Shown here piece after piece: positions 20,112 to 22,309 of a stretch of DNA of 64,000 nt (its first letter is position 1; each line of letters begins with the position of its first letter). The stretch is taken from contig NZ_MWPH01000001.1 of assembly GCF_002177135.1 (NCBI RefSeq), forward strand, positions 62,001-126,000, written 5' to 3'. The notes beneath the pieces are model-generated. The model saw only the letters and a program-made list of their open reading frames with translations, was not told where the DNA came from and made no database searches. This DNA is from Natronolimnobius baerhuensis (GTDB lineage Archaea > Halobacteriota > Halobacteria > Halobacteriales > Natrialbaceae). The translations under genes were made by a program, and so were the position numbers.

Positions 20112-20231
20112 TTACCAGCACTTCTCCGGACATTCGCCCGTCGCAAGCGTCGTCACGTCTCCGAGTGTCGTTGCGTTCGACCGTTCCTCGAGGTCTTCGA
20201 CGAAGTGTATCGGGTCGTTTGATTGGCTCAT
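20112..20231 (-). CDS. Candidate RiPP precursor peptide (39 aa)
   Basis: A 39-residue peptide: MSQSNDPIHFVEDLEERSNA, then TTLGDVTTLATGECPEKCW. The first half is acidic and leader-like (IHFVEDLEER). The second half has two TTL units each followed by an acidic residue (TTLGD and TTLATGE) and ends CPEKCW with two Cys. It is divergent from an ATP-grasp gene and an M50 protease gene whose N-terminus looks PqqD-like, the arrangement of a ribosomally made, modified peptide locus. A TATA-like ataaata at 20261-20267 sits about 33 nt before the ATG. A competing plus-strand frame (20025-20222) starts with TTG and is less likely. The gene is supported by context, not by a known homologue. Confidence 0.55.
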   Translation of the reverse strand: MSQSNDPIHFVEDLEERSNATTLGDVTTLATGECPEKCW

Positions 20232-20260
20232 AGCCGGTCGTCGATACACCTGCTCGTGGG

Positions 20261-20267
20261 ATAAATA
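20261..20267 (-). promoter_or_regulatory. TATA-like element of the peptide gene
   Basis: ataaata (TATTTAT on the minus strand) lies about 33 nt upstream of the ATG at 20231. It implies a transcript with a leader of only a few bases. The surrounding 20260-20300 is the most A/T-rich stretch near this locus. Confidence 0.45.
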
Positions 20268-20391
20268 CAATACATAATTGTTTAGATTATGGTCTGGGGA
20301 GAGAAACACAAACGTCAATTTCTGCGGTAGATGTGCTCTAATTCGATGGTACTGGGTCTATAGGACATACTTGCTTGTTGAATGGCTTGAA

Positions 20392-20402
20392 ACAAACTTA
20401 TG
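20392..20402 (+). promoter_or_regulatory. TATA-like element of the ATP-grasp operon
   Basis: caaacttatgg is centred about 29 nt before the ATG at 20427, the spacing expected for a leaderless haloarchaeal transcript. The divergent peptide promoter lies 125 nt away on the other strand. Confidence 0.4.
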
Positions 20403-20426
20403 GTCGCTGCGAACGAATGGTTCGCT

Positions 20427-21377
20427 ATGAGTGTGTTACTCCTTGGCCCTCGATCAGATCCGCAACTCGCTGCCGTCGAGCGTGCACTCGAGACTCGAGG
20501 CGTCGACACGTGCGTGTGGGATGCCGACGACTGGCCGGGTGCGGGCGCGCTGACGTACCACCAGGGCGACCAGACGCGCCTGACGGTCGACGGGATGCCC
20601 GCTGACGGCGTTCACACAACCTATCTCCGGAACTTCGCGCTCAACCCGCGACTGTCCGAGTACCGGGACGACCTCGAGGATCACCCGTTCGCCTTGCTAA
20701 ATCAACTGCGGGAGTATCAGGCCACCCTCGAGTCGATGCTCTACTCGCTTGCGGCCCGTGGCGTGCGGATGGTGAATCCACTCGAGACGCAGGACCTGCA
20801 CACCCGCAAGCCCTGGCAACTCGAGCGACTCGACGCTGCCGGCGTGCCAGTTCCGGAGACGCTGACAACGACCGACCCCGAGGCAGTGCGTTCGTTCGCA
20901 GATCGACTGGGTGCAATCGTCTACAAACCGGTCAGTGGGGGCGGCCACGCGGCGGTGCTTACCCCCGACGATCTCGACGCTGACCGGCTCTCGTTGCTGG
21001 CAAACTCACCCGTACAGTTCCAGGAGTACGTCGACGGCGAGGATATTCGCGTCTTCGTCGTCGACGGCGAGGTCGTCGCCGCCGCCCGGATCGTCTCCGA
21101 CGAACTCGACTATCGAACAGCCGACCACGACGTCGAACGGATTCCACTCTCCGCGCTCGAGCCCGAGATTTCTGAGGCCGCCGTTACCGCGACAGACTGC
21201 CTCGGACTGGCGTTTTCGGGCATCGACGTTATCGACACCGACGGCGGCTGTACCGTCCTCGAGGCGAATCCGTCGCCGATGTTCGCGGCGTTCGACGAGA
21301 AGGCGGGGACGGACGTTGCCGGCGCGCTCGCAGACCACCTCGCGACGCCCGCCGAAACGGAACCGGCCGCTGCGTGA
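20427..21377 (+). CDS. RimK/graspetide-maturase-like ATP-grasp ligase
   Basis: A 316-residue ATP-grasp enzyme. The N-terminal domain (1-120) ends in VRMVNPLETQDLHTRKPWQL, and the ATP-grasp core has YKPVSGGG (166-173), QEYVDGEDIRVFVVDGEVVA (199-218) and the metal/ATP motif GCTVLEANPSPMF (274-286, with E279 and N281). The order YLRNF, then VNP, then KPWQL and VPETLTTTDPEA matches the layout of peptide-modifying ATP-grasp ligases (MvdC/MvdD/TgmB-like) as well as RimK. These couple ATP to formation of an amide or ester bond. It is followed two bases later by the M50 protease gene. The start MSVLLLGP fits the Rossmann-like first strand and the TATA spacing. A role in modifying the neighbouring peptide is inferred. 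Confidence 0.85.
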   Translation: MSVLLLGPRSDPQLAAVERALETRGVDTCVWDADDWPGAGALTYHQGDQTRLTVDGMPADGVHTTYLRNFALNPRLSEYRDDLEDHPFALLNQLREYQATLESMLYSLAARGVRMVNPLETQDLHTRKPWQLERLDAAGVPVPETLTTTDPEAVRSFADRLGAIVYKPVSGGGHAAVLTPDDLDADRLSLLANSPVQFQEYVDGEDIRVFVVDGEVVAAARIVSDELDYRTADHDVERIPLSALEPEISEAAVTATDCLGLAFSGIDVIDTDGGCTVLEANPSPMFAAFDEKAGTDVAGALADHLATPAETEPAAA

Positions 21378-21379
21378 CC

Positions 21380-22309
21380 ATGTCCGCTGCGCACGACGGC
21401 GACGGCGACGGATCGCCCGCCCTCGAGTCGCTCTTTCGCGAGCCGTTCGGCTTTACGTGGGGCGACACGGACGGCACGATCTGGCTGCGGAGTGACGAGG
21501 GGTCGTACAAGCGCGTCCATCCGGTCTTCTTCGAGCAACTGCGTGAGATTGCGACTGGCTCGAGCGACCCCGCCGACCACGACGAGCGCGTCCGCGAGAC
21601 GGTCGCGTTACTGGCTGCGGAGGGCTACCTCGAGTCCGGAAGTGAAATCGTCCGCGAGGAACCACCGCCGGATATCCGACTGTGGCCCCGACTCGGCGCG
21701 GTCGCCGGCGTCGTTGTGCTGTTCGTTGGCTGTCTCGCAGTCCGCTGGCCCGAACTCCGACAACTGCCCGCCGACCTCGAGTTCGGCCTCGGACTCGCGC
21801 TGATCGTCCTGCCCGTCTTACTCGGCTCGATTGCGCTCCACGAACTCGGCCACTACGTTCCGAGTCGGCGCTACTTCGACCCACAGCTCCGAATCGGGCT
21901 TCTCAACAGGGTTATCCCCGCGATCATCACGCGGACGACTGACGCCTGGCGCTGCCCGCGAAACGTCCGTCTCTGGATCAGTCTCGCGGGGCCGGTCGTC
22001 GATCTGCTCGTCGCGACCGGCTTCGCCGTCGCGTTCGTCGTCTTCCCCGACCAGCCCATCGTCGGCTTTCTGGCGCTCCTGATCGCCGCACGCGCCCTGT
22101 TCGTCCTGAACCCGCTCATCGAAGGCGACGGCTACTGGGCGCTCGTCGATGCCTTCGGTTGGCACAACCTGCGCACGCGTGGCTTTCGCGACCTCGAGCG
22201 CCGCGTCCTCTCGGGACCGGCGGTGTACGCAGTCTCGAGTGTCGTCTTTACCGTCGGATTCGTCGCCGTCATGCTGGCCGTGTTGACGAGCGCGATTGGC
22301 CTCCGATGA
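21380..22309 (+). CDS. Membrane M50/site-2-type metalloprotease with PqqD-like N-terminus
   Basis: A 309-residue protein. Residues about 20-86 form a winged-helix-like domain (TIWLRSDEGSYKRVHPVFFEQL, then AEGYLESG) that resembles PqqD/RiPP-recognition elements. The C-terminal half is a membrane protein with zinc ligands in HELGH (154-158) and a second site in NPLIEGDGYWALVDA (about 244-258), as in site-2 proteases. The combination is known in loci that modify and mature peptides. The gene starts two bases after the ATP-grasp stop; a GTG at 21374 is an alternative start that would overlap it. Its substrate is unknown; the peptide at 20112 is the obvious candidate. Confidence 0.83.
   Translation: MSAAHDGDGDGSPALESLFREPFGFTWGDTDGTIWLRSDEGSYKRVHPVFFEQLREIATGSSDPADHDERVRETVALLAAEGYLESGSEIVREEPPPDIRLWPRLGAVAGVVVLFVGCLAVRWPELRQLPADLEFGLGLALIVLPVLLGSIALHELGHYVPSRRYFDPQLRIGLLNRVIPAIITRTTDAWRCPRNVRLWISLAGPVVDLLVATGFAVAFVVFPDQPIVGFLALLIAARALFVLNPLIEGDGYWALVDAFGWHNLRTRGFRDLERRVLSGPAVYAVSSVVFTVGFVAVMLAVLTSAIGLR

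Follow-up and report, generated by a model that had tools for sequence, protein, structure and literature searches.

We describe a three-gene locus of haloarchaea whose product is most likely a graspetide, a peptide stapled through its side chains. Genes for a small precursor peptide, an ATP-grasp ligase and an M50 membrane protease were read directly in the window (the whole stretch of 64,000 nucleotides of Natronolimnobius baerhuensis DNA that was analysed; Table 1). We conclude that the locus is genuine, because each intact enzyme pair that we found has the peptide gene next to it. Gene conservation, linkage, selection, the families of both enzymes and the spacing of donor and acceptor residues were computed; the product is predicted.

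Layout and distribution of the locus

The peptide gene and the ATP-grasp gene are divergent, and the start codon of the protease lies two bases past the ligase stop. Direct reading bore out the coordinates of this arrangement (a 39-residue peptide divergent from an ATP-grasp gene, with an M50 gene two bases later) as given in the initial annotation. The region between the divergent genes aligned with that of a congener at ~70% identity, and its best-kept block adjoins the ATG of the peptide.

Table 1. Features of the locus in window coordinates
Feature	Position	Strand	Basis
Precursor peptide gene, MSQSNDPIHFVEDLEERSNATTLGDVTTLATGECPEKCW, 39 codons + stop	20112-20231	-	Direct reading; homologues beside enzymes
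C-terminal CPEKCW, residues 34-39, two Cys; Glu36 possible second acceptor	20115-20132	-	
Core motif TTLATGE, residues 27-33, predicted ester Thr28-Glu33 (i, i+5)	20133-20153	-	Alignment and spacing test
Leader segment HFVEDLEERSNA, conserved, residues 9-20	20172-20207	-	Alignment of 12 loci
AT-rich divergent intergenic region, presumed promoters	20232-20426	.	Function inferred
ATP-grasp ligase gene, predicted graspetide synthetase	20427-21377 (ATG at 20427)	+	Profile matches, nearest solved structure
M50 (site-2 type) membrane metalloprotease, predicted leader peptidase	21380-22309 (ATG at 21380)	+	AlphaFold, Foldseek
Protease N-terminal domain, residues 13-96, presumed cytosolic	21416-21667	+	AlphaFold model
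Zinc motif HELGH (HExxH)	21839-21853	+	H154, E155, H158 invariant in M50 alignment
Second metal motif NPLIEGDG	22109-22132	+	P245, G249, D250, G251 invariant in M50 alignment

Among 392 haloarchaeal genomes, the ligase family occurred in 14 and the M50 family in 14; 13 held the ligase together with an intact M50 protein, confirming that the two co-occur. The remaining ligase genome (G385) carries a distant solo relative, and the remaining M50 match (G382) is a C-terminal fragment. Plasmids of Halocatena and Halorussus, and genomes of other families, also carry loci with ligase, protease and peptide. A search of the contig collection returned nine haloarchaea and one weak bacterial M50 match, in a genome with no such ligase. 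A phylum-wide draw of 295 genomes yielded no match besides the window's own, and a search for viral carriage of the locus yielded none.

A precursor was present at all 25 adjacent ligase/M50 pairs (the window and 24 other loci), so that the recurrence of a short gene beside orthologous enzymes, on which the initial annotation had staked its proposal, was indeed found. With the window peptide as sole query, homologues adjoining orthologous enzymes were retrieved at E-values from 3e-23 to 5e-7 (L028, 3e-18; L029, 5e-17; L031, 3e-8; L033, 3e-7; L030, 5e-7). A regular expression for the leader matched at 25/25 pairs, 24 of the precursors lying no more than 300 bp from the enzymes and the other slightly farther away (~320 bp), and gave zero further matches in ~304 kb of flanking DNA; as it was built from these same precursors, its weight lies in the lack of matches elsewhere. 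A peptide-profile search of the 392 genomes gave seven strong matches (E < 1e-18), each adjoining the enzymes and each from a locus that had gone into the profile. The next match was a decayed precursor copy (TNDDVHSVEDLEERSNAPPMATVLAPAKKGRSRCPGK; G210, L118 ~1465-1575) in a genome without ligase and protease, which is a relic of a lost locus.

Several loci depart from the arrangement in the window. In the assembly of a further genome, the 26th (G489), ligase and M50 gene lie apart, and the ligase has three precursors in tandem (L144:5210-6051). These share a leader and differ in their core modules; TQACYETGC and TTFAIGEE, both in the third, are arranged there in the opposite order to that at other loci. 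The solo ligase of G154 (L131) also has a precursor. Three Halorussus loci (L039, L074, L075) have two adjacent ATP-grasp ligases, one M50 protease and a 31-residue precursor (FIEALGEEEDLEDREQT...), and are a two-ligase version of the locus.

The adjacent RND exporter had been proposed as a further partner, a role that its distribution speaks against. The pump is found with the locus in the window's family alone, in a ValRS/RND/HFX_2341 neighbourhood, and is absent from the loci elsewhere. In G382 (L040:4902-5090), a remnant of the M50 C-terminus follows directly behind the RND gene and the ligase is gone; this is a partial deletion of the cluster, and the pump thus stays where most of the cluster is lost. 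No transporter, of the NHLM type of the plesiocin group or otherwise, recurred across clustered neighbourhoods of different families. Inside the window's family, the pump and the HFX_2341 regulator do recur beside the locus, as they would if peptide, ligase, protease, pump and regulator were unrelated neighbours in one family. However, the genes for peptide, ligase and protease remain linked where the surroundings are unrelated, on plasmids and in other families without pump and regulator. This already rules out mere synteny for the core trio, an explanation to which we give practically no chance.

The precursor peptide and its core

The peptide is under stronger purifying selection than the enzymes. 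It shares 95% identity with its counterpart in the congener, compared with 85-86% for ligase and protease, and its codons differ by 8.5 synonymous and 2.5 nonsynonymous changes (dN/dS 0.06, lower than the 0.16 and 0.25 of the enzymes). In the alignment of 12 loci, H9, F10, E12, L14, E15, E16, R17, N19 and A20 of the leader and T27, T28, G32 and E33 of the core are invariant. The leader of the window's clade reads HFVEDLEERxNA; other clades have related leaders (HFIEELxE...EERxN, FIEALxEE..LExREQT and KHLIGELEDR..RES) and unrelated short cores. CPEKC is retained in five loci (the window, L027, L028, L066 and L029). The precursor matched none of the NCBIfam precursor families and had no meaningful similarity to solved protein chains. 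On the plasmids of Halocatena salina and Halorussus salilacus, whose gene tables are incomplete, no feature is annotated at the precursor.

A conserved leader and a separate variable core, encoded beside the ligase, were thus found at 25/25 loci, as expected for a graspetide precursor and in support of the leader-and-core RiPP precursor proposed initially. We also considered that the peptide might be a signalling or regulatory small protein that controls or binds the enzymes, whose substrate would lie elsewhere. It is on the opposite strand at most loci, carries no known export signal, and varies in gene order and in orientation relative to the enzymes (divergent, convergent or co-directional). 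Against such a regulator, a conserved leader with a variable core of fixed donor-acceptor spacing is typical of RiPP substrates, as are the three tandem precursors in L144, and we regard a regulatory peptide as very improbable.

The core of the window's clade is TT[LM]AxGE (L066 has TTTVVGE) with C or E as the next residue, which gives the conserved motif TTxxxxE(E) with T27, T28 and E33. The motif of plesiocin is reportedly TTxxxxEE, with nested Thr-Glu esters and an inner pair at i,i+5. Exact TTxxxxEE occurs in the relatives L030, L031, L033, L067-L070 and L144, with varying inner residues (TTLAVGEE, TTMALGEE, TTMAMGEE, TTANHFEE, TTFAIGEE). The window peptide itself has TTLATGEC, i.e. TTxxxxEC, and does not carry the second Glu of the plesiocin motif.

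A donor five residues before an acceptor, [ST]x4[DE] (i,i+5), was present in 17 of the 21 representative cores, compared with 5.7 expected from shuffles; this spacing rule was first noticed on part of the data and then tested, with core boundaries set by the analyst. The rule also follows as a prediction from the plesiocin motif with its inner ring. Of the 12 cores that lie outside the window's clade, eight had the spacing (1.6 expected), and none of 50,000 shuffles scored as high. An excess at i,i+9 in the same 12 cores (five, with 0.8 expected) may reflect a second pair or a fixed leader-proximal Thr. The Ser/Thr/Lys donor that precedes an Asp/Glu acceptor at fixed spacing in graspetide cores was accordingly found, except in five related cores where the spaced pair is absent (L032, L034, L071, L073 and L131).

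Four of these cores (L032, from Halorussus amylolyticus, L034, L071 and L073) are free of acidic residues. One leader type and one ligase-protease pair could serve two chemistries, with Thr-x4-Glu staples in most clades and closure through the C-terminal carboxylate in the acid-free sisters; we consider this unlikely. As part of it, and equally doubtful, the acid-free cores TYYTGGCIAYC, TVVSTPITWFGG and TRVTCPLSC would form ATP-driven tail-to-side-chain lactones or thiolactones like autoinducing peptides.

In the window peptide, Thr28-Glu33, kept in all relatives of the clade, is the first candidate pair, and Thr31-Glu36 or Thr27-Glu36 are further candidates. The initial annotation had placed a staple between repeated Thr-Thr-Leu and a following acid. 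Conservation of T27, T28 and E33 supports the site as likely; the motif itself is TTxxxxE(E) rather than TTL with an acid after it. We rejected the first TTLGD as a staple because it is not conserved (AATLDS in Halopiger, L029).

The ligase and the protease

The ligase matched the RimK-like ATP-grasp family of Pfam (E = 2e-20). Its best NCBIfam profile was TIGR04187, 'ATP-grasp ribosomal peptide maturase' (GRASP_SAV_5884; E = 1e-30), with 107 bits, far below the curated cut-off of 350 bits. This profile matched 15/15 ligase members (best E = 4e-37), and RimK-family profiles likewise matched all of them. The nearest solved ligase was 7drm (250 bits, ~35% identity), which is PsnB, the macrocyclase of plesiocin (PMC10452190); the next solved ligase reached 101 bits, and other graspetide ligases ranked before the RimK/LysX types (69 bits and less). 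In the reverse search with PsnB against the plasmid collection, haloarchaeal ligases ranked first (161 and 129 bits).

In a tree of 37 ligases, the clades other than the window's united (100/99) and the window's close kin fell into well-supported groups, while LysX, RimK-like and CofF-like proteins of the window's own genome branched apart as a clade of their own (99/99), with a long branch. The positions of PsnB, of the other bacterial graspetide ligases and of the base of the window's clade were left unsettled, and long branches meet there; constraining the clade with PsnB cost 1.7 log units (p-AU 0.39). The likeness to PsnB is therefore based on similarity scores and the motif, and not on the tree. 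With PsnB and other RiPP grasp ligases ahead of RimK/LysX, the ligase belongs to the graspetide-synthetase lineage, its exact branch aside, and the earlier assignment to this kind of ATP-grasp enzyme is supported by the nearest solved structures.

The ligase might instead act like RimK and add an amino acid or small peptide, for example at the C-terminus of the precursor, with the M50 protease releasing the product. The matches of all members to RimK-family profiles and the four cores devoid of acidic residues are in line with this, and graspetide synthetases are described as hard to distinguish from RimK without phylogeny (PMC8939145). Yet PsnB is nearest by 150 bits over the next solved ligase and by ~180 over RimK/LysX-type ligases, the genome's own LysX, RimK-like and CofF-like proteins branch separately, and the donor-x4-acceptor spacing would have no reason. 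We consider RimK-like activity very improbable.

The zinc motifs HELGH and NPLIEGDG proposed for the protease are present, and their key residues are invariant. Pfam Peptidase_M50 matched weakly (0.0017, below cut-off). The best NCBIfam profile was daptide_HExxH (NF041824; E = 1e-19), with 70.9 of the 300 bits required, and the epipeptide (YydH/LiaK) profile gave 27 of 225 bits. Among the M50 members, 14/14 matched the daptide and 13/14 the epipeptide maturation protease, the window protein below cut-off. The AlphaFold model (pLDDT 86.6) had as its best PDB match 3b4r, the site-2 protease of Methanocaldococcus (Foldseek probability 1.00, E = 5e-3). The protein thus combines HExxH and NPxxxGDG in a membrane core with the S2P fold.

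The protease had also been credited with a PqqD-like winged-helix N-terminus, for which we found no profile or fold match. The PqqD profile of Pfam matched none of 26 protease members. A PF05402 search of the window's own genome, which found a true PqqD clearly elsewhere, did not list the protease at E up to 1, and hhalign of the N-terminal domain against that PqqD gave a probability of 5.9. The domain was modelled with good confidence as a helix, three strands and two helices. Three strands followed by helices make the order of elements compatible with an RRE in this model; no PqqD or RRE structure was among the PDB matches listed by Foldseek. The domain may nevertheless bind the leader.

The true PqqD-like protein of this genome (PF05402, 72.5 bits; G000:C2 ~1246000-1246900, L078:938-1791) adjoins a 171-residue protein that by eye resembles lasso-peptide B2 (transglutaminase-like). 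The pair is probably a second RiPP-type locus of the genome, for a lasso peptide.

Predicted maturation and comparison with known systems

We consider it quite probable that the locus encodes a haloarchaeal graspetide-type RiPP, with an ester formed between Thr28 and Glu33 by the ligase and the leader taken off by the M50 protease; we infer ester chemistry, ring pairs, protease role, export and bioactivity. The precursor would be made in the cytosol, where its leader HFVEDLEERxNA would be recognised by the ligase and probably also by the N-terminal domain of the protease. The ligase would phosphorylate the side chain of Glu33 with ATP, and attack of the Thr28 hydroxyl on the activated Glu33 would close an omega-ester macrocycle with loss of 18 Da. 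A further ring is possible, between Glu36 and either Thr27 or Thr31. Cleavage by the site-2-type protease at the membrane would then remove the leader. The stapled core, which might also contain a Cys34-Cys38 disulfide, would leave the cell and might act as a protease inhibitor or as an antagonist of other haloarchaea.

Expression systems exist for haloarchaea. The computed monoisotopic mass (reduced Cys) is 4322.94 Da for the unmodified, untagged peptide with Met kept and 2006.95 for the unmodified tryptic peptide SNATTLGDVTTLATGECPEK; with one or two staples, the calculated values are 4304.93 and 4286.92 for the former and 1988.94 and 1970.93 for the latter. The precursors form a set with predictable ring geometry (donor-x4-acceptor), and this natural series, acid-free cores included, would probe the range of closures open to the ligase. 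The leader peptidase of graspetides often goes unidentified; the protease is a candidate for this role.

Experimentally known archaeal RiPPs are lanthipeptides as far as the consulted surveys go, and the locus would add graspetides to haloarchaea. The haloarchaeal lanthipeptides (PMC10105419, PMC12144867) share the host group and differ in their LanM chemistry. The text of the 2025 survey of archaeal RiPPs (PMC12144867) names neither graspetides nor ATP-grasp, and the main text of two graspetide surveys (PMC8939145, PMC13097080), as far as searched, does not mention haloarchaea. Halobacterial graspetide-type loci that combine a site-2 protease partner with a novel leader family may therefore be new, although the surveys' supplementary tables may already list them. 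One archaeal graspetide group, group 36, has been predicted in Thermoprotei (Carter et al. 2026, PMC13097080). It resembles our loci as predicted archaeal graspetides but is reported only from Thermoprotei, has a chromosome-segregation-like partner and comes without mention of M50 in the text.

The TIGR04187-type graspetides (tgmB of Streptomyces, rosaritide MirB) share the best NCBIfam profile of the ligase and the pairing of peptide and ligase genes. Their precursors are unrelated, however, the ligase falls short of the required score (107 of 350), and no methyltransferase or PPIase partner was noticed at the locus. The M50 proteases of daptides and epipeptides (YydH/LiaK) are likewise membrane metalloproteases of RiPP maturation and provide the best profiles of the M50 domain, but the match is limited to the M50 core with the N-terminal domain outside it, and their modifying enzymes differ.

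The closest parallel is plesiocin, a group 2 graspetide of Plesiocystis pacifica (PsnA2/PsnB), whose precursor is compared here at the level of the motif. PsnB is the nearest solved ligase, TTxxxxEE recurs in several relatives, the window's clade has a single ligase, and donors precede acceptors. In contrast to plesiocin, the window core is TTxxxxEC, with one motif rather than repeats, the leader is HFVEDLEER and the host is an archaeon. The window locus also has an M50 protease where an NHLM-type transporter is reported for group 2 (PMC13097080), and this membrane protease would stand in for the peptidase-transporter of the bacterial relatives.
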